This document shows positions 4,985 to 24,326 of a stretch of 24,326 nt of DNA, in pieces. The DNA is from a virus. How positions within the stretch are numbered: position 1 is the stretch's first letter; each line of letters starts with the position of its first letter. The translations under genes were made by a program, and so were the position numbers. The notes under the pieces are model-generated. The model saw nothing but the letters and a program-made list of their open reading frames with translations, searched no databases and had not been told where the DNA came from. The stretch is taken from positions 1 through 24,326 of the IMG/VR virus record IMGVR_UViG_3300013127_001073, one strand, 5' to 3'.

Positions 4985-5418
4985 AAATACACCTACAGAT
5001 GGAAACGCACGACCTGCGGGAAATGCTCGGCGACTACTTCACCAGCCGCGGCTTTGAAGTGCTCAACACGGACGAGCTCTGCAGCAAGTTCGCCGAGGTA
5101 TTTCCAGAAGGGTTAGTGGTATCCGCCACGCTGGCGCCGCCGAAGCCTCCTCCGGAGGCTAGTCTTCCGCCGGAGACGGATTACCCGTCCATGACATCCG
5201 GTGGCGCCAAGAACGTAGTATCCATGGCCGAGCGTAGGCAGAATCCTGTTCTGCGCGACGCGGACCTGTTGGACCCTACGAATTACGGCAACGTGCCGCG
5301 TAGGCCTACAGACGATGAGTCTCACATTGACGCTGAACAGGAAATGCGCCGGCTATTGAGCGCCAGCAGCGCAATACAAGCAGAGAAGGAGCGAGAGGAT
5401 GCTCGACGAGGTCGATAA
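4981..5418 (+). CDS. Unknown 145-residue protein
   Basis: The ATG overlaps the helicase stop as ATGA, implying coupled translation with the helicase. Residues 1-50 may fold (helical, with EMLGDYFTSRGFEVL). Residues 52-75 are Pro-rich (PPKPPPEASLPPE), and the C-terminal part is charged and helical, ending in basic DARRGR. I do not recognise a family. The tight coupling between a helicase and a nuclease suggests an accessory factor for one of them. The last 20 nt overlap the start of the nuclease gene. Confidence 0.75.
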   Translation: MKIHLQMETHDLREMLGDYFTSRGFEVLNTDELCSKFAEVFPEGLVVSATLAPPKPPPEASLPPETDYPSMTSGGAKNVVSMAERRQNPVLRDADLLDPTNYGNVPRRPTDDESHIDAEQEMRRLLSASSAIQAEKEREDARRGR

Positions 5419-6271
5419 CGAAGAGATCAAGGGCATAGAGAAGGCTCCGGTCAAGGAGTCTTATTATTCGCGCATGCTGCCCCGCGGGTACCTGTCGGTA
5501 TCGCAGGTAACTCAGTATTTGAAGTGTGGAGAAGCGTACCGTCGGCGGTACGTACTCGAACAGCCTATCCCGCCTACCAGCTTCACCGCGCAGGGGCGCA
5601 GTGTGCACAAGGCGGCTGAGGTTCTGCACAACAGTATCATTGCGGCTGACCCGCTGTCCTTGCCTGAGATGGAGCAGGTCTTCTCAGACACTCACGACGC
5701 TGAGATGGTCAACGTCGAGATCCTGGAGGACGGGCTCACCCCGGGTAACATCAAGGATGCTGGCATGTCCCTTACGCGGCTGTATCATCAGACCGCGTTC
5801 GGTAATACCGTAGACGCCGCCACCAACAAGCTGGTGCCCGCCATCGAGCCAATCGCGGCGGAACGCGTCGTCAAGGTCGACCTGACCTACCCCGAAGGGG
5901 ACCCTATCCCATTCTTAGGCGTGATTGATCTTGAGGAGGCCCACACGGTCTCCGACCTCAAGACCAAGCGCAAGGCCGTATCGCAGGCGGAGACGAACAG
6001 CGCGCTGCAGCTGTCGCTGTACGCTCACATCACGGGCAAGCCGCACGTGAGGCTGGATCAGCTCATCAAACCGACCAAAACGCTACCGTCTCGCTTTGTT
6101 CGTACGGAATCCATAAGGACCAAGCAGGAAACGCTACACGCACTTGACGTAGTAGCAGATGTTGCGGTAGATGTAGCTGCCGGACGTTTTCGACGGACCG
6201 CGCCCGAAAACTGGTGGTGCTCCGAAAAGTGGTGCCCCTACTGGGGTGACTGCCGCGGGCGCAAACGCTGA
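5399..6271 (+). CDS. PD-(D/E)XK nuclease, Cas4/RecB-like, with four-cysteine (probable Fe-S) site
   Basis: A 290-residue nuclease of the RecB/Cas4 type, expected to resect or process DNA ends with a divalent metal ion. In order it shows SVSQVTQYLKC with C43, the conserved His in GRSVH (H70), D177 in GVIDL, the catalytic DLK (D186, K188) and the QxxxY motif (Q204, Y208). Near the C-terminus is CSEKWCPYWGDC (C274, C279, C285). One cysteine before and three after the nuclease core is the arrangement that binds 4Fe-4S in Cas4 and AddB. The ATG at 5399 has AAGGAG 7 nt upstream, inside the end of the previous gene. Co-expression with the SNF2 helicase suggests a helicase-nuclease team for recombination or host DNA breakdown, which is inference. 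A CRISPR role is unlikely, since no cas1, cas2 or array is present. Confidence 0.9.
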   Translation: MLDEVDNEEIKGIEKAPVKESYYSRMLPRGYLSVSQVTQYLKCGEAYRRRYVLEQPIPPTSFTAQGRSVHKAAEVLHNSIIAADPLSLPEMEQVFSDTHDAEMVNVEILEDGLTPGNIKDAGMSLTRLYHQTAFGNTVDAATNKLVPAIEPIAAERVVKVDLTYPEGDPIPFLGVIDLEEAHTVSDLKTKRKAVSQAETNSALQLSLYAHITGKPHVRLDQLIKPTKTLPSRFVRTESIRTKQETLHALDVVADVAVDVAAGRFRRTAPENWWCSEKWCPYWGDCRGRKR

Positions 6272-7301: not shown

Positions 7302-7560
7302 TTCTAATGGAAGCTCCCCCTCCGGAGCTAACGTACACCTACTACGTGCCTGGGAGTCTGTAACACAGAAACTCAGCACGATCCGCGCGTTGTACATTGT
7401 TAGTGTGGCAACTAACGGTCCGCGCGATGAAATACATGCTGAGTTTCACCAAGCGATTGGAGACGTGCTAGAAGGGATGGCACTACCCACACTCAACCTT
7501 ACCTTGATCGAAAGACGCAAGGTAAATGAAGAGGCAGCTTGGCTACAAGAGCGGAAATGA
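7291..7560 (+). CDS. Unknown 89-residue protein
   Basis: I choose GTG at 7291, which has GAGGAA 7 nt upstream. The longer frame from 7216 would overlap the zinc-ribbon gene by 86 nt and has no good ribosome-binding site. The protein is mostly helical (HLLRAWESVTQKLSTIRALY, then EFHQAIGDVLEGM), with no known motif. It overlaps both neighbours slightly, which fits a tightly coupled small-gene cluster. I do not recognise its family. Confidence 0.68.
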   Translation: MAGNSNGSSPSGANVHLLRAWESVTQKLSTIRALYIVSVATNGPRDEIHAEFHQAIGDVLEGMALPTLNLTLIERRKVNEEAAWLQERK

Positions 7561-7898
7561 TGCGTAGGAGTCTCATAGAGACCTACCCCAATCACAGTGA
7601 TAAGTGGTATCTGAGTGAGGCGATTTGGGATGCAGTCCTGAGCGCCATCGGCATTATCGCCAATATCCTAGGCCTAGCCGGGCGTCCTATCGTTTCGACG
7701 ACGCTGGATACGGTTGTACGTGCTGCGCGTACGCCTAAGGAGACTCCCCTTGACAAGGTGGAGGAGCTTTACAGGACGCTCATGCACGAGATCTCTCAGA
7801 AGTTGGCGATTTTCGATAAGACATCTATCGATTATCAACGCGCGGATGCACAGCTTGAATTGCTGGGGCGTCTGATGAACCATGGAGAGGCTGCGTGA
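7557..7898 (+). CDS. Unknown small protein with a hydrophobic helix
   Basis: The ATG at 7557 overlaps the previous stop as ATGA, and AAGAG lies 5 nt upstream. An in-frame TTG at 7539, after GAAGAGG, is a possible alternative start that adds six residues. From the ATG the protein is 113 residues. Residues about 24-42 (AVLSAIGIIANILGLAG) are hydrophobic and could be a membrane helix or a buried core helix. The remainder is charged and helical. No family is recognised. It ends directly before the ParB-like gene, whose ribosome-binding site (GGAGAGG) lies inside this gene. Confidence 0.7.
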   Translation: MMRRSLIETYPNHSDKWYLSEAIWDAVLSAIGIIANILGLAGRPIVSTTLDTVVRAARTPKETPLDKVEELYRTLMHEISQKLAIFDKTSIDYQRADAQLELLGRLMNHGEAA

Positions 7899-8987
7899 AT
7901 GGCTAAGCGAAAGACCATAGAGGTCCCGTTTGAGTCGCTGGTGTGCGACACGGACTTCAACAGTCGCGAACAGTACAAGGGCATCGCCGAGCTGGCGGAG
8001 TCCATCAAGGCCTCTGGCCTGTTACAAAACATCGGCGTATGCGAGAACAAGGACGGGCCTGACGGCACGTACTTCGTCGTGTACGGTTTCCGCCGGTACT
8101 TAGCCATCGAGAAGATCCGCGCGGACCTGGGCCCCGAGGCCTTCGCTAACATCGAGGTAGTCCTCAACGACGGCACCCGTGAAGAGCTCCGTGAGCGCAA
8201 TCTCAAGGAGAACATCGACCGGGAGCAGCTCGCACCGTATGAGATTGCGCTGACCATCAAGAAGATGGTCAACGCGGGTCTCGAACAGCGCGACATCGCC
8301 TCTCGCCTCGGACGTCCGCAGTCTTGGGTCAGCTACCACTACAAGGTAGCTACCAAGCTGGCGCCTGCGGCCTGGCAAGCGTTCCGGGCGGGCACGCTGA
8401 CCCTCGAGCAGGCCCTACATATCGCTGACGTGGATGAGGACGCGCAGGGCGAAGTGGTTACCAAGGTAACCGAAGCCGACACGCGCACCGAGGCACGCCA
8501 GATTGCTAAGGATGCAGCTGCTGCAGCAGGTACCCGGCGCAAGTACACCAACAAGGGCCGGCCTACCTCCAAGAACCTGGCGCAGTACGTTAGCGATGTG
8601 TCCTTCGACGCGAGTGCCTCCGGGCTTTCGCGCACGGGGAAGAGCTTCGCCAACGGCCTGGCTGCGGGCATCCGGGTCGCCCTGGGTGAGCTGTCATTCA
8701 AGGGTCTCAGCGACACTGAGACTTACACCGATACGGACTACCACCTGCGCAACAAGCGCGCTAAGGCTGCTGCGGCTCTTCCTGAGGGAGCTCCGAAGAA
8801 GCGGCGCGGGCGTCCTCCCAAGGACCCGAACGCGCCCCCTAAGGAGAAGGCTCCCACGGTGGCCAAGGCCGCCAAGCCCAAGGCCCCCAAAGCAGCGAAG
8901 GCGGCACCTGCAGCCGGCGCAGCTCCCAAGCGGCGCGGGCGTCCTCCTAAGAATCGGGATCTCCTAGCTGAAGCTATGAGCTCCTAG
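7899..8987 (+). CDS. ParB-like protein with two C-terminal AT-hooks
   Basis: A 362-residue DNA-binding protein. The N-terminal ParB/sulfiredoxin-fold domain shows GFRRYLAI (63-70) and the NLKENIDRE segment (101-109), corresponding to the CTP-binding boxes of ParB. A helix-turn-helix follows at about 127-150 (LEQRDIASRLGRPQSWVSYH). Residues 285-351 are rich in Lys, Ala and Pro like a histone H1 tail and hold two AT-hooks, KKRRGRPPK (300-308) and KRRGRPPK (344-351). KGRP at 219-222 is a weaker third candidate. No ParA partner or parS-like repeat was seen, so it may act in replication, gene control or genome organisation rather than partition. The ATG at 7899 follows the previous stop directly. 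Its stop codon overlaps the stop of the convergent sigma factor gene. Confidence 0.9.
   Translation: MAKRKTIEVPFESLVCDTDFNSREQYKGIAELAESIKASGLLQNIGVCENKDGPDGTYFVVYGFRRYLAIEKIRADLGPEAFANIEVVLNDGTREELRERNLKENIDREQLAPYEIALTIKKMVNAGLEQRDIASRLGRPQSWVSYHYKVATKLAPAAWQAFRAGTLTLEQALHIADVDEDAQGEVVTKVTEADTRTEARQIAKDAAAAAGTRRKYTNKGRPTSKNLAQYVSDVSFDASASGLSRTGKSFANGLAAGIRVALGELSFKGLSDTETYTDTDYHLRNKRAKAAAALPEGAPKKRRGRPPKDPNAPPKEKAPTVAKAAKPKAPKAAKAAPAAGAAPKRRGRPPKNRDLLAEAMSS
8799..8947 (+). repeat. Two exact 20-bp direct repeats encoding the AT-hooks
   Basis: The same 20 bases occur at 8799-8818 and 8928-8947, both in frame and both encoding the KRRGRPP core. The flanks are also alike (AGCTCCGAAG against AGCTCCCAAG), with a 3-nt length difference. 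Because synonymous positions match as well, this looks like a recent internal duplication, or gene conversion, of the AT-hook. Confidence 0.85.
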
Positions 8988-9730
8988 AGCGATATATCGT
9001 GTGTTTCGGCAGCTTCGCGGAGTCGCTCTAACGCGCTTTCGCGGAGCTGCCGGACACGTTCTCCTGTGATATCCAGGATTTTTCCTATCTGCTTCAAAGT
9101 CTTAGCTGTGGTATGGATTCCGTAACAGGCTTTGACGATGAAAGACTCTCTAGTATTTAGAGGGGTAAGTTCTAGTAACCGGGTGACGCACTGCACCATC
9201 GTATTGGATGCCGGCGTGTCATACAGACCGTACTCTGTTGCAGTGAGCTCATTGAACTCTACCGTGGTGGGTGTACGTACTCCCTTTACTACGGCGTGTG
9301 CGGGGATATGCAGCAGCCCGATCCGTCGAGCCTCTTCCCGCATCTCGTGCTTTACCCACCAGCCCGCGTAAGTCAGAAAACGTGTACCTGCTTCAGGTTT
9401 GAATTTTCCCAAAGCGCGTATCAGGCCGATGTTGCCGGCAGCGATCAGGTCTTCTAGAACCGTCCTGTCGTGCAGCGCGCGAGGGTGTTTACGTGCTTCC
9501 GATATCACGTAGCGCAGCGCGCCCTCGACTATCTTATCCCGAGCCTTAGGGCTCTTGGTTTCCGCGTATTCGAGCAGTAATACGCGTTCGTCTGCAGCCG
9601 TTAGCTGGAACGTATTCTCTACGGACTTGTAATACTGCGACAACGCAGTATTTACCGGCCGAGGGGTCGGTGAGGCTTGCGGCGCATACATACTTATAGT
9701 CTTGTCCTTTGGTAGCCGATGGCTTACCAT
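8984..9730 (-). CDS. Sigma-70 family RNA polymerase sigma factor
   Basis: A 248-residue sigma factor that should direct host RNA polymerase to phage promoters. The region 1.2/2.1-like segment spans about 28-80. Region 2 follows with DLIAAGNIGLIRALGKF (94-110), TRFLTYAGWWVKHEMREEAR (116-135) covering regions 2.3 and 2.4. Region 4.2 is a helix-turn-helix, LKQIGKILDITGERVRQLRE (212-231). Region 1.1 is absent, as in alternative sigma factors. The start ATG at 9730-9728 has GAGGGG 7 nt upstream; a later ATG (M14) is less well placed. The gene runs convergent to the ParB-like gene with overlapping stops, and divergent from the four-cysteine protein with 32 nt between starts. It is the only non-packaging gene seen on the minus strand. 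Confidence 0.95.
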   Translation of the reverse strand: MVSHRLPKDKTISMYAPQASPTPRPVNTALSQYYKSVENTFQLTAADERVLLLEYAETKSPKARDKIVEGALRYVISEARKHPRALHDRTVLEDLIAAGNIGLIRALGKFKPEAGTRFLTYAGWWVKHEMREEARRIGLLHIPAHAVVKGVRTPTTVEFNELTATEYGLYDTPASNTMVQCVTRLLELTPLNTRESFIVKACYGIHTTAKTLKQIGKILDITGERVRQLRESALERLREAAETHDISL

Positions 9731-14819: not shown

Positions 14820-17800
14820 ATGACCAAAGGGCCTCTGTGTCAAGGTTGCCCTCGATTTTCTGAGCTCCGCTGTCCTCCTGCTGCTCAAGACGCTGCCCGC
14901 CGCTGTGACGTACTGATCGTCGCCGAGCAACCCGACGATAAGTCAGCAACCGCGGGCCGCGCTTTGTTTGGACACGGCGGTACTGTAGTCAATAAAGCCA
15001 TCGATGCCGTGATGGACTCCGAGCCCGTGTACCGGGGCTTGGATGTGCGCAAGACCTACGCAGTGCAGTGCATGTCGCCTGACGACACTGCACCTAACAA
15101 AGAGGTCATGGCGCAGTGCAGCACGTATCTGAATGGCCTGATAGGGGCGTGGAAGCCCAAGGTGCTCATCGTACTTGGGGGCACCGCCTTCAAGCAGCTG
15201 GGCTTCAAGCTGCAGTTCAATGACTCTCGTGGGAAGATGTACACGCACGCCGGCACGGGCACGCCCGTGCTGGTCACCTTCTCCGAGAAGGCACTCGTGG
15301 CCGCCCCAGGTGTTTACGCGACGTTCATGCTGGACCTGCGTAACGCGTTCAAGCGGGCTCTCTACGGCGAGGCTAAAGCCAAGACCATAGAAGAGCTCTC
15401 CAAGGACTACATACTGCCTAAGACTGTAGACGAGTCGCTGGCGGTATGTGACCTGATCTGCAACTACGCACGTAGCGGAGACCCGGCGGCGTGGGCAATC
15501 TCGTTCGACACCGAGACCACTACGCTACGCCCAGAGAAGAGCAGCGCCCGTATCATCGCGTTCTGCTTTGCGTGGGACGCCGGCAAGGCCACGACCATAC
15601 TGTACGACCATCCGCATGCGCCTGAAGAGTTCTCGGTGCGCAGAGCGGAGTTGCGAGATGCAATTCAGCGAGTGTTGGCCAGCAGCAAGCCTAAGCTAGC
15701 GCACAACCTGAAATTCGACGCTAAGTTCGTGATGCTCAAAGAGCTGTTCACGATCAATAACCTCATGTGGTGTACGCTTTTGGGAGAACATCTCCTGGAT
15801 GAGGACAAGAAGGGCAACTACGGCCTGAAGGCACTGACCGCCTCTTTCTTGCCTGACTACGTAGGCTACGAGGACCGCCTCTACGACCTTCTCCAAGCTG
15901 AAGAGGGAATCTCTGAAGCAGAGGAGATGGCTAAGGAGATTGCCGACCAAGCCGATATCCTGGCGGAAGATCATCCTGAGTTCTTGGCGGCGCTCACGAA
16001 ACATCACGCTGAGCTGGTCGAGTACGAGCAGAAGTCCCCTGCGGAGCAGGCTGCCCTAGCTACTTACGAGCGCGCCATGGAGGATTACACCTTCATGCGC
16101 AGCTACCACAAGGGGCGTGTCGCAGTGTGGGAAGCGGAGGTCGCCGACTGGCCTAAGGGCAAGCGCGGTAAGCCCGTCAAACCCAAGTTCACCGCGGCTA
16201 AGCCCGATAAGCCCGTGATCTCCAAGAGGCCAAAGCGCCCTGAGGATCCGCGCTCCAAGAAGGAGCGCCAGATTGCCAAGGACGCGGGCTTCGAGAATGT
16301 GCCCATCGATGAGCTGCAGCTGTATGGCGCGATTGACGCGGACGTCACACGCCAACTCACGTCCATACAGCGGACGCGCATCAAGCAGGAGCAGTCCAAG
16401 GTGGGCCCGCTCATGCGTACACATGCAGTCCCTGCATCTCTGGTGCTGGGGCGCATGGAGTATTACGGCACTCGCGTAGACCAGGAGTACATCCCTGTAC
16501 TCGAGGAAGGTTTGCGTCGTATTGCCGAGAGCACTGAGCGAGAGCTCTACGACATGGCTGGGCGGGTGCGTAATGACCGCGCCATCAACCTGAACAGCCC
16601 TATCACCCTGTGCGACGTGTTGTTCTCTTGGGGCTGGACGCATCCCGACGGGAAAGTGGTCACGTACACACCCGTCGAGAAGACCAAGAAGGGCGCGTTC
16701 AGTACCTCCGAGAAAGTGATCCGTACATTCATCGAATACGCCGACGACGCCAAGACAATACCGGCACACGACGCGTTGTTCGCTGTACGTCTGCTGGAGT
16801 GGCGTAAGTCCAGTAAGGCGCTGAACACCTTCCTAGCCAATATCCGAGCACTGTCTAAGCGCGATGGGTTCCTGCATACGCAGTTTCACTTGAACGGCAC
16901 CGGCACCGGCCGGTTGAGCTCGAGTGATATGAACATGCAGAACATCCCGAAGTTCTTAGCGAATTTCAACATCAAGAAGCTGTTCATACCGGAGTCAGAC
17001 GACTACGTCATCGTGAACGTGGACTGGAAAGGCGCGGAAGTCCGCGTCTTCACGGCCTATGCACACGACCCCGCACTGATAGACGCGCTCAACCGCGGTC
17101 TAGACATGCACAGCTTCTTCGCGCATAAGGTGTTCAACCGCCCGTATGAACACTACGACCGTCGCGATGACGATGTATTCTTGCCTGACAAGGCGTATCG
17201 AAAGAAGCTCGATCTCGAGCGCTCTCGAATCAAGCGCGTCGTGTTCGGCATTCTGTACGGTGCAGGCCCGGGCAAGATCGCAGAGACCATCGGCGTTTCT
17301 GAGGACGTGGCCCGCGAGCTAATCGACCTGCTCTACGCCATGTTCCCTGCCATCAAGCAGTACGCTATCGATATAGAGCAGGAAGTTCTCAATAAGGGCT
17401 GGGTGGAGACACACTTCGGTCGTCGCAGGCGTTTCCCGCTTGCGCGGCTGTCGCGCCACCGTGGCCGCGCCGTGCGCCAAGCACGCAACTTCAAGATCCA
17501 GAGCACGTCCTCTGACATCGTCATTGGGCAGTTGGTCGAAATGGACCAGCCGCTGCGGGATCTGGGCGGCCGCCTGTTGCTCACAGTACACGACTCCATT
17601 GTCATGCAATTCCCCAAGAAGCACCTGAGTCAGCTCAAGGAGTTCATCCACTACTACGCCGAAAAGCGGGTGAGTGAGAAGTACTCTTGGCTTCCTGTCC
17701 CCTTCAAGGTAGACATCGAAGTCGGGCCTAACTACGGGGAATGCCAGCCCATAGATAAGTACTTGGCTAAGCACGTATTCACGCCCGTTCTAGAAGGAGT

Positions 17801-17873
17801 GGTAGAAGAAAATGAAATCCTCGCAGAGCTCCGAGACGACGCCTTCTCCGGCGAAGCCGCCGCGACCGTCTAG
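14820..17873 (+). CDS. Family A DNA polymerase with UDG-like N-terminal domain and 3'-5' exonuclease
   Basis: The replicative polymerase, 1017 residues. Residues 1-185 resemble family 4 uracil-DNA glycosylase, with C7, C10, C84 and C100 in the spacing that holds a 4Fe-4S cluster. The usual GEAPG is AEQPD (35-39), and the HPS-type motif is not visible. The proofreading exonuclease has D230/E232, NLKFD (D300) and Y502/D506. Polymerase motif A is DWKGAEVR (D735), motif B is R801-K805-F809-Y813-G814, and motif C is VHDS (H924, D925, S926), where Pol I has VHDE. About 129 extra residues lie between exonuclease motifs II and III. SPO1-type phage polymerases also carry a UDG-like N-terminus. ATG at 14820 abuts the primase stop, with no clear ribosome-binding site. 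There is no 5'-3' exonuclease domain. Confidence 0.96.
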   Translation: MTKGPLCQGCPRFSELRCPPAAQDAARRCDVLIVAEQPDDKSATAGRALFGHGGTVVNKAIDAVMDSEPVYRGLDVRKTYAVQCMSPDDTAPNKEVMAQCSTYLNGLIGAWKPKVLIVLGGTAFKQLGFKLQFNDSRGKMYTHAGTGTPVLVTFSEKALVAAPGVYATFMLDLRNAFKRALYGEAKAKTIEELSKDYILPKTVDESLAVCDLICNYARSGDPAAWAISFDTETTTLRPEKSSARIIAFCFAWDAGKATTILYDHPHAPEEFSVRRAELRDAIQRVLASSKPKLAHNLKFDAKFVMLKELFTINNLMWCTLLGEHLLDEDKKGNYGLKALTASFLPDYVGYEDRLYDLLQAEEGISEAEEMAKEIADQADILAEDHPEFLAALTKHHAELVEYEQKSPAEQAALATYERAMEDYTFMRSYHKGRVAVWEAEVADWPKGKRGKPVKPKFTAAKPDKPVISKRPKRPEDPRSKKERQIAKDAGFENVPIDELQLYGAIDADVTRQLTSIQRTRIKQEQSKVGPLMRTHAVPASLVLGRMEYYGTRVDQEYIPVLEEGLRRIAESTERELYDMAGRVRNDRAINLNSPITLCDVLFSWGWTHPDGKVVTYTPVEKTKKGAFSTSEKVIRTFIEYADDAKTIPAHDALFAVRLLEWRKSSKALNTFLANIRALSKRDGFLHTQFHLNGTGTGRLSSSDMNMQNIPKFLANFNIKKLFIPESDDYVIVNVDWKGAEVRVFTAYAHDPALIDALNRGLDMHSFFAHKVFNRPYEHYDRRDDDVFLPDKAYRKKLDLERSRIKRVVFGILYGAGPGKIAETIGVSEDVARELIDLLYAMFPAIKQYAIDIEQEVLNKGWVETHFGRRRRFPLARLSRHRGRAVRQARNFKIQSTSSDIVIGQLVEMDQPLRDLGGRLLLTVHDSIVMQFPKKHLSQLKEFIHYYAEKRVSEKYSWLPVPFKVDIEVGPNYGECQPIDKYLAKHVFTPVLEGVVEENEILAELRDDAFSGEAAATV

Positions 17874-18468
17874 CACCAAGACCCACGATACAGTCTCGTT
17901 CGATAAGTTCGGGGCTACCTTCACCCTGAACATCGTCCGAGATACGCGTTATGCGTGGAAGCCCTCCGTCAGGCTAGCTGACGGCACTCTGGTGGACACG
18001 ACGGTAGAGAACTGGGCGGCGCAGCTACCTCCTGGCTCTAGGCCCATCACTGAATGGGAGGAGACTGACGAGGAGCTGCATACCAGCTACGTCCAACACG
18101 CCACAGTGCAGGACGACGAGTTCTGTGTGGCGCCCAAGCCGCTGCAGGTCTATACGACAGCCGACGGGCCTATCCTGGGCATCCAGCTCGAGATAGACAG
18201 CGACGCGATTATGCTACTAGACCCCTGCGTAGTTCGTTTCGACGACAAGCGCGGCGGTCTGCAGCTCGTGCCCATCTTCAACGTAGCACGCCACCTGCGC
18301 ATCATGAAGGCGGGCATCCGTTCTATGTGCCCGCCCTCCGAGCTCCTGATAGGCATCTACCCGGGGTTCATGCTGCAGAACCGGCAGGCACGATACACGC
18401 TGAAGCCCAGCATCGCCATGGCTGAGAAGATCGTGGCCGAGGGCACCGGGATCGCGGTTACCTCCTGA
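17812..18468 (+). CDS. Unknown 218-residue protein overlapping the polymerase 3' end
   Basis: ATG at 17812 lies 62 nt inside the polymerase gene in another frame. AAGGAG lies 12 nt upstream and AGAAGA lies closer. No later in-frame ATG occurs before the folded part, so I keep this start. Residues 1-25 are Ser/Pro-rich and disordered. The core contains beta-rich segments such as ILGIQLEID, LDPCVVRFDD and LQLVPIFNVARHLRI, ending with LLIGIYPGFML. The pattern 'L-(N/D)-P-x-V...L-x-P' recalls viral Sm-like domains, but I hold this weakly. It is the last gene of the replication operon before a convergent junction. Confidence 0.8.
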   Translation: MKSSQSSETTPSPAKPPRPSSTKTHDTVSFDKFGATFTLNIVRDTRYAWKPSVRLADGTLVDTTVENWAAQLPPGSRPITEWEETDEELHTSYVQHATVQDDEFCVAPKPLQVYTTADGPILGIQLEIDSDAIMLLDPCVVRFDDKRGGLQLVPIFNVARHLRIMKAGIRSMCPPSELLIGIYPGFMLQNRQARYTLKPSIAMAEKIVAEGTGIAVTS

Positions 18469-18601
18469 CGGTGACCCGCTAACGCAACGCATGCCTTCTA
18501 GCGCTGATGTACCGTCAGCTACGTTGCGCGACCCCCCACTACGCGGGGCACACAGCCGAATCCCTTGAGTTGTTACAAGGGCTTCGTACTAAAGGTTGCG
18601 T
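18469..18601. terminator. Structured junction between convergent operons; possible bidirectional termination region
   Basis: Three consecutive inverted repeats fill this gap. CGCAACG (18483-18489) pairs with CGTTGCG (18522-18528) and encloses CTGATG-TAC-CGTCAG. A CCCC/GGGG hairpin lies at about 18534-18548. CCCTTG (18562-18567) pairs with CAAGGG (18576-18581) around an 8-nt loop. None has a U-tract, so intrinsic termination is unproven. The location between the replication operon and the terminase gene fits a transcription barrier or mRNA end protection. I saw no tRNA fold or reading frame of note. Confidence 0.4.
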
Positions 18602-20302
18602 TTACCGCGGGGCACCGTCATAGGTCATCATCGGATCCGCTGCCAGTAACTTGCTGGCTAGCCACGCATATATCTGGGCATGGCACGCGTCGTCGGGGTT
18701 AGACGCCGCGTGCCGCCATACTTTACGGCCGGTGTTAGACACTTCCTCGTACAGAGCGAGGATGTCCTTGATGGGCGTTGTCATCTGCTTGATGCTCGGG
18801 AAGATCACGCCCTCGCGCTTCAAGAACATCATGTAGTGATCGATCATGGTGGTCCGGTCCACCATCCAACGGTCGATCTTGTTCCAGAAGATGGGACGTG
18901 CGTTAGTGCCGCTGCCGCCGGTCACGCCACCGCGGTACTGGCACTGGTGGGCGCGGTGCTGGCCTAGGCGCTCACGCAGGTTAGCATTGGCCAACGCGCC
19001 ACCGCCGGCGTCACCCATGATTATGCTGACGTTGTATCGATTGCAGATCTCGACAATGTGATCGACAACACCGCCGGAGATGGGGTTGGTCTCCGGGTAT
19101 ATCTTGAAGTAGAGCGTCTTCAGACGGAAGTTGTGCTCTACGGTACCCTGCGTAATCCCGTATACCCACAGCACGGTGCGCGACGCTCCTGAAGCCATGC
19201 CGCCGCCGGACCAGTCTACGCCGGCTACGACGCCGCGCAGGTCTTGCATCATGATGTTGTTGGTGGGGTATTCCGTGATCACATAGTCACGGCAGAGGTT
19301 CTCGAGCTCTTCTTGCGAGATGAGGCGCGTACCGATGGCGTCGCTGACGCCCATGACCTCGTTCTTGAACTTGGACGGCGGGTAGGCGACGTGCTTTTCG
19401 ATGATGCGGTCCCAGCGCGTCTTTGCGAGCTCCTGATTCTTTAGGTCAGAAGGCATGGACGCCGGGACGTTCTTGGGCAGGATGACCTGCGGGATATGGA
19501 ATCCCTTTAGCTTCTTGCCCGTGTGGTTGGGCGGGAACACGTGTGTGTCTATCCACTCCCCCTGGCGGACATCAACGTACTTGCCGCACTTCAGGCAAAT
19601 GGGGCCCTTCTTGCCTAAACAACGCTCGTCCTCGAAGAACATGAACGCGTTGCAGCCAGAGCACTTGATCACCCACTCAGTCTTAGTGCTCCACTGCCAC
19701 AGGCCTTCGATGGTGTTTTCCATCGACTTAGGCGTTCCGCAGTACGTCTCATACGCGTAATCGCTGTTGCTCATCGTCTCGTTGATGACGGGGATTACGG
19801 CCTCGTACTGCATGTCCTGGACCTCGTCGTATGCAACGCGGTCGGCAGACACACCGCGGGCGCGGTCCGGGTCATCGCTGGCGTACGTGAACGTTATCTC
19901 GGAGCCGTTGGTGAATTGCTTCTGGAAGACGCGGCTAGACAGCTCACTGGATACCCATCGATTGCGTATCTCAGGGCTGTAGAAGATGGTCTTGCCGACA
20001 CGTGTCTGCGAGAAGCGTGTGGTTTGCTCTTGTGCGGGCGCTACGAACAGACTGCGCCAGTGGGGCTTTGTGCAAGCCTCGGCAATCAGGAAGTTAGACA
20101 GCGTCGTACTCTTAGCAACCTGCTGCCCCGTTTTCAGCAATAGCCCGCCTACGGTGCTGTCGTAAATGCGATTGTAGAACGGGTAGTCTGCTAGGGAGAA
20201 CGGACGGCCGTCCAGGCAGATTAACGCCTGGGCCCAGTCGGAGCGGCGTATGACCAAATCGTCTTTCGTGTACGCGTCTCCAACGGTAGATGTATTTTCC
20301 AT
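18602..20302 (-). CDS. Terminase large subunit with zinc-ribbon insertion
   Basis: The DNA-packaging motor, 566 residues. The ATPase half has a deviant Walker A, KTGQQVAKST (57-66; Ala replaces the usual Gly before K64), Walker B VAYDE (D159, E160) and a coupling-like CGTPKS (188-193). Between the ATPase and nuclease halves are C214/C217 and C236/C239 (CSGC, CLKC), a zinc ribbon of the kind seen in GpA-like large terminases. The RNase H-like nuclease shows GVDWSGGG (D363), MGDAGGG (D431) and NPDDACH (D537/D538). The ATG at 20302-20300 has no good ribosome-binding site within 20 nt. No small terminase is evident nearby. The portal lies about 15.5 kb away on the same strand. Confidence 0.96.
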   Translation of the reverse strand: MENTSTVGDAYTKDDLVIRRSDWAQALICLDGRPFSLADYPFYNRIYDSTVGGLLLKTGQQVAKSTTLSNFLIAEACTKPHWRSLFVAPAQEQTTRFSQTRVGKTIFYSPEIRNRWVSSELSSRVFQKQFTNGSEITFTYASDDPDRARGVSADRVAYDEVQDMQYEAVIPVINETMSNSDYAYETYCGTPKSMENTIEGLWQWSTKTEWVIKCSGCNAFMFFEDERCLGKKGPICLKCGKYVDVRQGEWIDTHVFPPNHTGKKLKGFHIPQVILPKNVPASMPSDLKNQELAKTRWDRIIEKHVAYPPSKFKNEVMGVSDAIGTRLISQEELENLCRDYVITEYPTNNIMMQDLRGVVAGVDWSGGGMASGASRTVLWVYGITQGTVEHNFRLKTLYFKIYPETNPISGGVVDHIVEICNRYNVSIIMGDAGGGALANANLRERLGQHRAHQCQYRGGVTGGSGTNARPIFWNKIDRWMVDRTTMIDHYMMFLKREGVIFPSIKQMTTPIKDILALYEEVSNTGRKVWRHAASNPDDACHAQIYAWLASKLLAADPMMTYDGAPR

Positions 20303-20448
20303 TATTTCGCGTTTTCGTGGTAGAAGTGCGTATCAATGATAGAGTCAGGCTCTGCTGGCGCACCAGAGTCGGGCGCAAAAATGGCTGTGGAAATAATGTG
20401 CATCATGGCACATAGGTGTGCAATACCATCCTTTAGAAAAGGGGAGTA
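20303..20448. promoter_or_regulatory. Divergent intergenic region with 6-bp inverted repeat
   Basis: This 146-bp gap between the terminase (-) and ATPase (+) genes must supply leaders, and probably promoters, for at least one side. ATGTGC (20396-20401) and GCACAT (20408-20413) form a perfect inverted repeat around ATCATG, a candidate operator. A strong ribosome-binding sequence, AAAAGGGGAG, at 20437-20446 serves the plus-strand gene. I could not find a convincing sigma-70 -35/-10 pair in either direction, and a phage-specific sigma factor would not require one. Confidence 0.4.
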
Positions 20449-20544
20449 ATGGCCGAGAAGAAGGACATGGTCGACGGCTGGGACCGTCTGGGAATCAGCC
20501 CCACGAGCATGGGACTGGTATCTAAGCTGCTAGACATTGTGTGA
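20449..20544 (+). CDS. 31-codon frame, likely the N-terminal helix of the adjacent AAA+ ATPase, cut off by TGA
   Basis: ATG at 20449 sits 2 nt after AAAAGGGGAG. The frame encodes 31 residues ending SPTSMGLVSKLLDIV and stops at TGA 20542-20544. The ATPase ATG at 20548 is in the same frame with only one codon (CAC) between. The LVSKLLDIV helix followed by a short turn and the ATPase beta-1 strand is what an intact MoxR-type AAA+ domain should have. The stop is UGA followed by C, a leaky context. Options are a nonsense mutation, readthrough, termination and re-initiation, a sequencing error, or a genuine separate leader peptide. Confidence 0.6.
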   Translation: MAEKKDMVDGWDRLGISPTSMGLVSKLLDIV

Positions 20545-20547
20545 CAC

Positions 20548-21723
20548 ATGAAGCCACGCCTGACGATCTGCCTGATCGGTGAGACCGGGATCGGCAAGAC
20601 GCCGATCGTGCACCAATGGTGCGCACGCATGAATGGGTACATGCGTGTACTGAACTTCGGTCACATGAGCCAGGAGGAAATCTCCATGATCATGTTCACC
20701 GAGGACGCAAGTTCGTTCAATTTCGTAGCTCCTGAGTGGCTACTCGAGCTCAACCGCAAGGCGGAAGAGATGGGATGTGCGGTGCTCTTCCTCGACGAGT
20801 GGAATCGCTCCGAAAAGGCGCTCGTGAACGGCCTGTTCACGCTCGCCGATGAGCGGCGACTTCACAACTTCCACCTCCACGAGAACGTCATCGTGGTGGC
20901 TGCGATGAACCCGTCGGATGGGTCCTACCTCGTCAACGAGGCGGAGAAGGATCACGCGATCCGAAAGCGCCTCAACTTCGTCTACACAGTCCACGACCTC
21001 TCGGCGTGGCTGGACTACGTCAAGAAGGCGAACTGGCACCCGTACGTGCCGGCCTTCATCAAGGCGGCAAACACCTTCCTGTATGACACCGGCGCGCGCG
21101 ACGCCGGCAAGGCCTTCCCGTGCCCCTCCAACTGGGAGAAGGTGTCCAACATCCTTCATGGAGCCCAGAAGGCCAAGATGGATCTCGCTGGCGAAGCAGT
21201 GCGCACCCTGATCGAAGGTCAGGTGGGCACCGTGGCAGCCCGGAAGTTCATGGAGTTCGTCGCGGACCAGAACACGCTGATCCAGCCGTCGGAGATCCTC
21301 TACTCGTATACGCCACAGAGCAGCGTGCGCAAGCGCGTCGCGTCTCTGCTGGATCGTACGGTCAACAAGGAAGGCGACATGGTCGAGAAGGCCGTGGACG
21401 CCAAGGCGGCCAACCGCGCGAGCCTGGTGGTCGAGCTGTGCGAGGGCGTAGCCCTCGAGCTGTTCTCTACGATGGCCGATCCGACCAAGATCGCGGCTCA
21501 CGTCGCGCTCTTCATCGGCGACCTGCCGAACGAGATCCTCCAGACGTTCGTCGCGGAGCATCTGAAGCAGGCCATGAACGCGAAGGGAGCCGAGGGACAG
21601 ACGTACCTCAACAAGCTCTCCAGCGCCTTGTCGGCTTACGAGCCGTACAAGAAGAAGATGAAGTTCATCGTAGACACAATGAGGTCGTACAAGCAGGCCG
21701 CGGGGTTGATCCCCAAGACCTGA
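20548..21723 (+). CDS. MoxR-type AAA+ ATPase
   Basis: A chaperone-like ATPase, 391 residues from this ATG. Walker A GETGIGKT lies at 11-18, unusually close to the N-terminus. Walker B is VLFLDE (79-84) followed by WNRSEK, and the sensor-1 segment is AAMNPSD (118-124). KRLNF at 140-144 lies in the expected arginine-finger region. The C-terminal 220 residues are helical, with a long charged stretch. There is no ribosome-binding site before 20548, so translation depends on the 31-codon frame upstream, by readthrough or re-initiation; the ancestral gene was probably 20449-21723. MoxR ATPases typically work with VWA or metallopeptidase-like partners. A candidate partner begins at 23417 on the same strand, past two minus-strand genes. 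The archaeal virus ATV has a MoxR/VWA pair linked to tail development. Confidence 0.92.
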   Translation: MKPRLTICLIGETGIGKTPIVHQWCARMNGYMRVLNFGHMSQEEISMIMFTEDASSFNFVAPEWLLELNRKAEEMGCAVLFLDEWNRSEKALVNGLFTLADERRLHNFHLHENVIVVAAMNPSDGSYLVNEAEKDHAIRKRLNFVYTVHDLSAWLDYVKKANWHPYVPAFIKAANTFLYDTGARDAGKAFPCPSNWEKVSNILHGAQKAKMDLAGEAVRTLIEGQVGTVAARKFMEFVADQNTLIQPSEILYSYTPQSSVRKRVASLLDRTVNKEGDMVEKAVDAKAANRASLVVELCEGVALELFSTMADPTKIAAHVALFIGDLPNEILQTFVAEHLKQAMNAKGAEGQTYLNKLSSALSAYEPYKKKMKFIVDTMRSYKQAAGLIPKT

Positions 21724-22383
21724 TCACGACACCAGTTGGGCTAAGCTAGCTTGTAGTGCCTTGGACTTCGTATCGAAGTACGTGTGCACTGCAGCTAGTT
21801 TGGCCAGCTGTACTCCCAGAGGAGTCTCGGGATACGCGTTATTTTTTAGCTCGCCCTTAGGCAGGGCAGCCCACGCGGCCTCGACCTTCTTGCGCAACAC
21901 GACACTGTCTTTTCCGTAGTGCGTGTCGAGAGCTTCTTGAGCCCAGTGCAGCTGCTCAGGGGCTACTAGCAACCCGTGTCTGTACAGCTGCACGCCGGTG
22001 TACGCGATGGGCTCCCGGTCGTAGCTCACGTTTTCTTTGTGGTAGTGCAGGTATATTTTGTACGCCTCGTATGAGGCCCACGCCAGATACTCCACAGGCG
22101 CATCGTCTAGGCTGTCCAGGTGCACAGGGTCGTCGTTGAACGTTACCGCGGTCTTCTCGAAGACCAGCGCGTCGTAATAGAACCGACCAGTAGACACCAG
22201 GACCCGCGCGGCCATTACCTTGGCGCGGTTATTCGGAGGTACGCTGACGCCCATGCGCGACAGCTCTATCCATAGAGTCTCGGGCTCCCACGCCATCCAA
22301 GTGCTGGGCAGCAGTACATCTAGGGCGCGGACACATGCGAAGGCGCACGTGGTCGCGTCCTTGAGCAGTTCCCGCGCGCCCAC
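21724..22383 (-). CDS. Unknown 219-residue protein, possibly virion-related
   Basis: GTG at 22383-22381 follows the previous gene's stop without a gap, and GGGGA lies 6 nt upstream, so the two genes are coupled. Sequence features are an N-terminal Cys pair (CAFAC at 13-17), aromatic-rich segments (YLAWASYEAYKIYLHYH) and a helical C-terminus. I recognise no family. Its strand is shared with the portal and terminase genes, which suggests late expression and a structural or assembly role. This is context-based inference only. Its stop abuts the convergent ATPase stop. Confidence 0.78.
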   Translation of the reverse strand: MGARELLKDATTCAFACVRALDVLLPSTWMAWEPETLWIELSRMGVSVPPNNRAKVMAARVLVSTGRFYYDALVFEKTAVTFNDDPVHLDSLDDAPVEYLAWASYEAYKIYLHYHKENVSYDREPIAYTGVQLYRHGLLVAPEQLHWAQEALDTHYGKDSVVLRKKVEAAWAALPKGELKNNAYPETPLGVQLAKLAAVHTYFDTKSKALQASLAQLVS

Positions 22384-23379
22384 TTACATCCCCAGTTGCT
22401 TGCAAATCATCGTCTTGATGTCTGCGGGGATGGTGGCAAAGACCTGCGCGAATTCCGCAGGGTCACCGGCCTCGGCCACCTGCGCCATCTCGGGCATGTC
22501 TACCGACTCCCAGATATCGGGAGGTAACGCCATGAGGGTCTCTACAGGCACCTGGGTTCCGCAGGCGTCTACGGTTTGCCCGGCGACCTTAGACGTGTTG
22601 AACACCGTCAGCAGCGGATCCGGCAGCTTGCGGTCGTAGTGCTTGTCGAGCCCCGCAAGGCGGTCGATCTCTTCGATCGTAGAGGCCACCTTCACCAGGT
22701 CTTTGCGACTGGTCATGAGGGGCTGCGCCGGCAGAGCTGCAGCGAGCTTCTCGTACGCGTCGCTGTACTTGCCTGTGGTAGCGCCTGCGCGGGCTCCTAG
22801 CCAGGTCTTCAGCGTGTCTACACTCGATGCGGTTAGCCCCGCCATCTTCAGTGTGAAGGGCTGAAGCGTAACGCTGTGTACTCGGGCAGCCTGCGCGACT
22901 CGGCTGAACGCCTCGGCGCGCTTCTCGAGCGTGAGCTTGGTGTAGTCCCGCTGAAGGACCTCTTCAGCTACCTTAATCTGCTCGGCGTTATTGATTGGCA
23001 GACGCGACACGTCGGGGAGCGCGTACACGGACTGTTCCGGCGTGACCGACTGCGCGGTCTTGGCGGCCGCAAACACGTGCGCTTCGAGCCCGTAGATCTC
23101 ACTAGCCTTAGCCAACTTGGAGTCTACGTAGCCCGGCACCGAAGAACCTAGCTTACTCCGGTATAAGAGGCTGGCGACGGTGTCCTCTTTCGTGTGCACA
23201 GGGAATCGCCTTTCAGATTCCCACGCGAAAGCTGTATCGGGCAGCGCGTCCACTTCAGCTTTTTTACTCATGAACTGCGCAGTCTTCAGCAGTTCACGTG
23301 CAAGCGGGCGCCCCCGTGTGAGAACATGGAGTTCTGCGTATGTGGGGTCGCCGTTATATTGGTCGTTGATAGCGCGCAT
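22384..23379 (-). CDS. Probable phage structural or assembly protein with an LPDxxFA motif
   Basis: A 331-residue protein starting at ATG 23379-23377. No Shine-Dalgarno is visible; instead a perfect 16-bp palindrome lies just upstream. Residues 46-61 read LPDTAFAWESERRFPV, resembling the LPDSxFAxPxxRxFPI motif in several phage and prophage head-region proteins, followed by an Ala/Lys-rich helical segment. The middle is helical (AEEVLQRDYTKLTLEKRAEAF), and the C-terminus contains PADIKTMI. The motif and the minus-strand setting favour a virion or head-assembly role, but this is not secure. Confidence 0.78.
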   Translation of the reverse strand: MRAINDQYNGDPTYAELHVLTRGRPLARELLKTAQFMSKKAEVDALPDTAFAWESERRFPVHTKEDTVASLLYRSKLGSSVPGYVDSKLAKASEIYGLEAHVFAAAKTAQSVTPEQSVYALPDVSRLPINNAEQIKVAEEVLQRDYTKLTLEKRAEAFSRVAQAARVHSVTLQPFTLKMAGLTASSVDTLKTWLGARAGATTGKYSDAYEKLAAALPAQPLMTSRKDLVKVASTIEEIDRLAGLDKHYDRKLPDPLLTVFNTSKVAGQTVDACGTQVPVETLMALPPDIWESVDMPEMAQVAEAGDPAEFAQVFATIPADIKTMICKQLGM

Positions 23380-23381
23380 TT

Positions 23382-23397
23382 GGGCTAATCATAGCCC
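23382..23397. promoter_or_regulatory. Perfect 16-bp palindrome between divergent genes
   Basis: GGGCTA (23382-23387) and TAGCCC (23392-23397) form an exact inverted repeat with a 4-nt spacer, ATCA. It lies 2 nt from the minus-strand ATG and directly before the plus-strand ribosome-binding site AAAGGAGAAG. As DNA it could be an operator controlling both genes. As RNA it would be a hairpin occupying the place of a ribosome-binding site on the minus-strand message. No second copy was noticed. Confidence 0.5.
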
Positions 23398-23416
23398 TAA
23401 AGGAGAAGCAAAGCTA

Positions 23417-24326
23417 GTGCGTACCGGGGCAGACAAAATTCAATTGGAGATGCAGCTCAACGAGAAGCTGCAGGAACTAATCGACAAGGGGCGCGACACA
23501 GTCGCGGACGCCCTCACCTACTTCTCGAGCAACCAGGCCGCGAATTTCTACGCGCGAGTGCTCAATCGCCTGGATCGTGTGGCAGCCCCAGGCTTCGGCA
23601 CCATGGGTGTCGTGTCCAATCGCGGCAAGTACTTCCTTCTGTACGACCCGATCTTCGCGGCGATGGTCAGCCACGAAGAGCTGGCCGCTACGCTGGAGCA
23701 CGAGGTGCTGCACATCATCCTCGAGCACATTCCTCGAGGCCTGACTCTTCTGAAGTGCCTGAATGGCGTGGAAGAGCAGCACATGTTCGCCATCACGCGC
23801 AACCTCGCTGCGGACATGGCCGACAACGAGCTGCTCAAGAAGAACTGGCCGGGCATCGCCGATCCGGCCAAGCCGCTGGGGTACTGGGTTCTGCCCAGTA
23901 ACTTCACGCCTCCGATGCCGCCCAACATGGCATTCGAGCAGTATCAGAAGCTGCTCATGGATCTACTGCGCAGTCGCCTGCAGTCGAGCCCCAAGAAAAT
24001 CTATCAGCTGGCGTCGGCCATCCTCAAGAAGCGCGCGGAGCTGGCTCAGCAGGCCATCCAGCAACAGCAGAAGCGCGGACAGTCTGCCGAGGACGAGGAG
24101 AAGCAGGAAGGCCAGCCAGGCCAGCCAGGCCAGCCAGGCCAGCCAGGCCAGCAGGGTCAGCAGGGACAGTCTCCTCAGAGTCAGTCTCAGCAGGGCCAGC
24201 AGGGCCAGCAGGGCCAGCAGGGCCAGCAGGGCCAGCAGGGCCAGCAGGGCCAGCAGGGCCAGCAGGGCCAGCAGGGCCAGTCCCAGCAGGGCCAGCAGGG
24301 CCAGTCCCAGCAGGGCCAGCAGGGCC
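23417..24326 (+). CDS. Metallopeptidase-like partner of MoxR ATPase (DUF2201-like), 3' end beyond window
   Basis: The frame runs open from GTG 23417 to the window edge, giving 303 complete codons and no stop. The ribosome-binding site AAAGGAGAAG lies about 10 nt upstream; a later in-frame TTG at 23444 is a weaker start. Residues 95-104 read HEVLHIILEH, the HExxHxxxxH zinc motif of putative metallopeptidases usually encoded beside MoxR ATPases and often followed by a VWA-like domain. HE and LGYWVLP segments nearby fit that family. From about residue 210 the protein turns hydrophilic (QQQQKRGQ, EDEEKQ). From about 232 it becomes a Gly-Gln-Pro and then Gly-Gln-Gln repeat. Any C-terminal VWA-like domain would lie outside the window. 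Whether it is an active protease or a substrate-recruiting partner of the ATPase is open. Confidence 0.88.
   Translation, partial: MRTGADKIQLEMQLNEKLQELIDKGRDTVADALTYFSSNQAANFYARVLNRLDRVAAPGFGTMGVVSNRGKYFLLYDPIFAAMVSHEELAATLEHEVLHIILEHIPRGLTLLKCLNGVEEQHMFAITRNLAADMADNELLKKNWPGIADPAKPLGYWVLPSNFTPPMPPNMAFEQYQKLLMDLLRSRLQSSPKKIYQLASAILKKRAELAQQAIQQQQKRGQSAEDEEKQEGQPGQPGQPGQPGQQGQQGQSPQSQSQQGQQGQQGQQGQQGQQGQQGQQGQQGQQGQSQQGQQGQSQQGQQG
24110..24154 (+). repeat. 9-bp tandem repeat encoding Gly-Gln-Pro
   Basis: GGCCAGCCA occurs four times in tandem from 24110 to 24145, then changes to GGCCAGCAG. It is in frame with the metallopeptidase-like gene and encodes GQP units. The change CCA to CAG turns Pro into Gln and links this block to the next. 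Confidence 0.9.
24194..24326 (+). repeat. 9-bp tandem repeat encoding Gly-Gln-Gln, continuing past the window
   Basis: GGCCAGCAG is repeated almost without change, interrupted twice by GGCCAGTCC (Gly-Gln-Ser), at about 24275 and 24302. Low synonymous variation indicates recent expansion by slippage or unequal recombination. The product is a collagen-like Gly-X-Y tract rich in Gln. The copy number in the assembly may be unreliable. Confidence 0.92.

Follow-up and report, generated by a model that had tools for sequence, protein, structure and literature searches.

An in-frame TGA in a phage AAA+ ATPase gene is probably a one-off nonsense change of a conserved tryptophan codon

The in-frame TGA that interrupts an AAA+ ATPase gene in the virus record analyzed here (24,326 bases, referred to as the window) is very probably a single TGG-to-TGA nonsense change of a conserved tryptophan codon, Trp32. 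Sequence comparison indicates that the change is private to the window and is a chance mutation or a consensus error, not a programmed signal, because TGG is present in every close relative that covers the codon, even in one that is 99.7% identical. The gene would then be an ordinary continuous phage AAA+ ATPase that suffered a one-off change of its Trp32 codon in one contig. The preliminary description listed a single-base nonsense change among several explanations, and the relatives select this one, with TGG as the original codon. The importance of the finding beyond annotation is small. It carries a caution, however: a lone in-frame stop in a single metagenome contig should be compared with a near-identical contig before recoding is proposed.

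The upstream frame starts at ATG 20449 on the plus strand and runs for 31 sense codons to TGA 20542-20544, which has C as its +4 base. The stop is followed by CAC and ATG 20548 in an unchanged frame, from which 391 codons extend to TGA 21721-21723 (Table 1). AAAAGGGGAGTA lies upstream of ATG 20449 and forms an anti-SD duplex of -8.2 kcal/mol; ATG 20548 has no ribosome-binding site (anti-SD duplex +0.5 kcal/mol). These values agree exactly with the preliminary description of a well-initiated 31-codon frame and of an ATPase start one codon past its stop, in the same frame and without a ribosome-binding site. Every relative covering that region has an N-terminus homologous to the upstream peptide, and therefore the 31-codon frame is not a chance open reading frame. 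Over codons 3-31, pN is lower than pS in ten of ten pairs tested (e.g., 0.25 versus 0.72), which argues that the stretch is coding and under constraint. The conserved N-terminus of the covering relatives also bears out the proposal that the upstream peptide provides the helix before the Walker A strand. The 60-80 bases 3' of the UGA fold with ordinary G+C-rich pairing. Automatic gene calling would place the ATPase start 33 residues too far downstream and may add a spurious peptide of 31 residues.

Table 1. Features of the interrupted ATPase gene and its surroundings in the window.
Feature	Position	Strand	Basis
Shine-Dalgarno region AAAAGGGGAG at the start of the intact gene	20435..20448	+	Sequence; anti-SD duplex -8.2 kcal/mol
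Whole AAA+ ATPase gene as in relatives (MoxR/midasin-like, phrog_1297), 424 codons plus stop, interrupted at codon 32	20449..21723	+	tblastn and alignments with 17 close and 4 distant uninterrupted loci; Pfam AAA_5 E=3.5e-10; phrog_1297 E=3.1e-43 on the G001 product
31-codon N-terminal part, ..KLGI.PTS....LLDIVW helix before Walker A strand	20449..20541	+	Kept in all covering relatives; pN < pS
In-frame TGA versus TGG (Trp32) in 17/17 close relatives	20542..20544	+	Alignment of relatives
ATG, codon 34 of the intact gene; possible, unproven re-initiation point	20548..20550	+	Met in 16/17 relatives, GTG/Val in L041
Cluster of 6 of 18 single-base differences from G001 (20360, 20381, 20384, 20514, 20532, 20544)	20360..20544		Comparison with G001; chance 0.0006 by simulation

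A wide scan with the ATPase homologue of IMG/VR contig G004 as query identified 22 loci; the first two ATPase protein scans had found only three. The 22 loci comprise 17 close ones that cover the codon, some of them near-duplicates of each other, four distant ones, and L044, which starts downstream of the TGA site and is uninformative there. The closest relative, G001 (IMG/VR contig 3300013129_001921, 8,524 bases), comes from a different sample and is 99.7% identical to positions 15781-24301 of the window. It has TGG where the window has TGA, and its single open gene of 423 codons starts at the same ATG and encodes an ATPase 100% identical over the 391-residue open reading frame of the window. 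In the 16 other close loci, the ATPase is 61-71% identical and encoded by one uninterrupted gene of roughly 420 codons. Among them, G002 and G003 (about 70% identical to the window, and identical to each other in this gene) and G004 (67-68%) are continuous with TGG. Codon 32 is TGG in 17 of the 17 close loci, which answers the question raised by the preliminary description of whether homologues are continuous across the stop and which residue they carry. Codon 34 is ATG in 16 of them and GTG (Val) in L041. The four distant homologues (34-36% identical) show a gap of two residues here and lack the tryptophan, but are continuous from the same '.KLGI' N-terminus into the Walker A strand. The earlier suggestion that the two frames are one gene thus holds in all 17 close and four distant homologous loci. 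Residues also precede the Walker A strand in the homologues from the isolated phages PA5oct, Axy11, and pv27. Two DNA patterns across the site matched no near-identical contig in IMG/VR other than G001, and a scan of genome contigs found no cellular or prophage relative.

Contigs G001 to G004 and L031-L045 share the terminase-ATPase neighborhood with the window, and G003 is syntenic with it as far as both contigs extend. They differ from the window in having the uninterrupted gene, TGG at codon 32, and an arginine in the terminase Walker A motif, none of which the window has.

Programmed readthrough of the UGA, producing a short peptide and the full-length ATPase, would fit the C after the stop, the good upstream ribosome-binding site, and the common frame, and tryptophan is both the native residue and the usual misreading of UGA. 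However, the 31-residue product has no counterpart elsewhere and the stop is kept in no relative, not even in G001. The conserved in-frame stop of a readthrough gene is thus missing from all 17 close loci covering the codon, and the previously suggested production of two protein forms by readthrough is very unlikely. We consider equally improbable a real, maintained allele in which misreading of UGA as tryptophan deliberately lowers the ATPase dose in the strain. The gene does not qualify as a selenoprotein gene, as relatives carry Trp at the codon, not Cys or Sec. The proximity of ATG 20548, three bases past the stop, had also suggested translational coupling, with two genes arranged by design so that ribosomes re-initiate to begin the ATPase. 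This ATG, however, is an internal codon of a continuous gene in 16 of 17 relatives (GTG in the remaining one), lacks a ribosome-binding site, and follows an N-terminal part whose protein sequence is conserved and, everywhere else, joined in frame to the rest. A conserved methionine of the protein accounts for the ATG at codon 34, and re-initiation survives only as an accidental rescue; as a designed feature, it has very little probability.

Reading of UGA as tryptophan throughout the genome, as in genetic code 4, would agree with the native Trp at codon 32, but it has a negligible probability. TGA terminates 12 of the 22 window genes with a visible end. For several of these, namely 5399-6271, 7539-7898, 20548-21723, and 21724-22383, the syntenic G003 orthologue has TAA or TAG at the same position. 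The window contains 100 TGG codons elsewhere and one internal TGA. Reassignment of UGA to Trp is contradicted by these counts, in line with the preliminary description, which had considered a genome-wide code change unlikely. Comparison of window genes with their orthologues identified no other in-frame stop or interruption, and the window contains no tRNA genes, including suppressor ones.

Within the preferred explanation of a TGG-to-TGA nonsense change, we lean slightly towards a real allele in the sampled population over a local sequencing or assembly error of the consensus. Excluding the repeat at the contig end, 18 single-base differences separate the window from G001 over 8.5 kb, and they are clustered: six lie within 185 bases, and simulated random placement yields six or more in a stretch of that length with a probability of 0.0006. 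Clusters of differences, mostly silent, are located at 16189-16304, 16826-16835, and 20360-20544. Such clusters in 8.5 kb of otherwise identical sequence look like short tracts of strain variation or recombination, or like assembly bubbles. If the TGA were absent from the phage population, its source would be reads that are chimeric, damaged, or carry errors, in a stretch with thin coverage or mixed strains, a reading to which we give somewhat less than an even chance. The dense cluster favors it, as does a second private change at 20124, 420 bases from the TGA, which replaces Walker A Arg60 of the terminase by Gln (gene 18602-20302, minus strand, codon 60). In the window, this motif is TGQQVAKST, versus TGRQ/TARQVAKST or CGRQVAKST in 21 of 21 homologous loci, including G001, and the arginine is also present in aligned terminases of Salmonella, Bacillus, and Geobacillus phages. 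Both disabling changes are C:G to T:A. Two such changes at otherwise invariant sites within 420 bases suggest that this part of the window either derives from a damaged genome copy or allele or is a poor consensus. Against an error, the window base at 20514 is that of the outgroup G002, so this difference is not an error, and 11 of the 14 coding differences in the overlap are silent or at third positions, as in real strain variation. The TGG-to-TGA change itself affects a third codon position, and most of the strain differences clustered with it are silent, which would fit a real haplotype.

A real allele would halt most ribosomes after 31 residues. Misreading of UGA by tRNA-Trp may yield a little full-length protein with the native residue restored, and re-initiation at codon 34 may yield some N-terminally shortened protein. 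The shortened form would lack the helix before the Walker A strand, which lies within the midasin and NorQ profile matches and is expected by phrog_1297, and therefore partial or complete loss of function would be most likely. The lesion may nevertheless be mild, because UGA-C terminates relatively weakly and misreading would insert Trp. Data in PMC5289835 support UGA misreading by tRNA-Trp in E. coli and B. subtilis; the +4C data in that paper come from yeast.

Its domains and neighborhood identify the gene as a phage AAA+ ATPase gene of the MoxR/midasin-like type, partnered by a DUF2201 (VWA-like) gene. Its AAA_5 domain, with Walker A and Walker B motifs, scores above the Pfam gathering threshold (E=3.5e-10), and the G001 product matches phrog_1297 (E=3.1e-43). 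The AAA_5 core is shared with the phrog_1297 or MoxR-type ATPases of Vibrio phage pv27, Achromobacter phage Axy11 (Schitoviridae), and Pseudomonas phage PA5oct. The window and the phrog_1297 phage ATPases have in common the Walker A motif GETGIGKT, the Walker B motif LFLDE, and an N-terminal extension before the Walker A strand. However, the window ATPase is only 20-27% identical to the compared isolated-phage proteins, and its codon 32 is a stop. Among solved structures, the best profile matches are the AAA+ modules of midasin (Rea1) and NorQ, and the match extends over the helix preceding the Walker A strand; the homology is remote only, and the window protein is a single module of about 424 residues. 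AlphaFold2 prediction of the intact G001 protein, from a three-row alignment only, reached a pLDDT of 42 and is given no weight.

As in MoxR-VWA pairs, a VWA-like partner gene is located close by. The window open reading frame from 23432, which the contig end truncates, matches DUF2201_N, and its G002 orthologue contains DUF2201_N and a DUF2201 VWA-like domain. MoxR-type AAA+ proteins work together with VWA partners as chaperone-like remodeling factors, as described for RavA-ViaA (PMC3893208). By analogy with the family, the ATPase may perform chaperone-like remodeling with its DUF2201_N/DUF2201 partner. The metallopeptidase-like or VWA-like DUF2201_N gene (23432-24326) contains a long collagen-like GQQGQQGQ repeat where the window ends, with a short indel between G001 and the window.

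The window also encodes a terminase large subunit, a family A DNA polymerase, a sigma factor, and a ParB-like protein. The closest isolated relative by terminase comparison, Vibrio phage D181 (187 kb), is not a close one, with about 31% identity. The lineage includes contigs L041, L044, and L038 of 180, 190, and 104 kb, and the window therefore probably represents only part of a phage genome in about this size range. In the product of the DNA polymerase A gene (14820-17873), a uracil-DNA-glycosylase-like domain forms the N-terminal part and is fused to 3'-5' exonuclease and polymerase domains. The phage-encoded sigma-70-family factor, with regions 2 and 4 (8984-9730, minus strand), adjoins the ParB-like gene 7899-8987.
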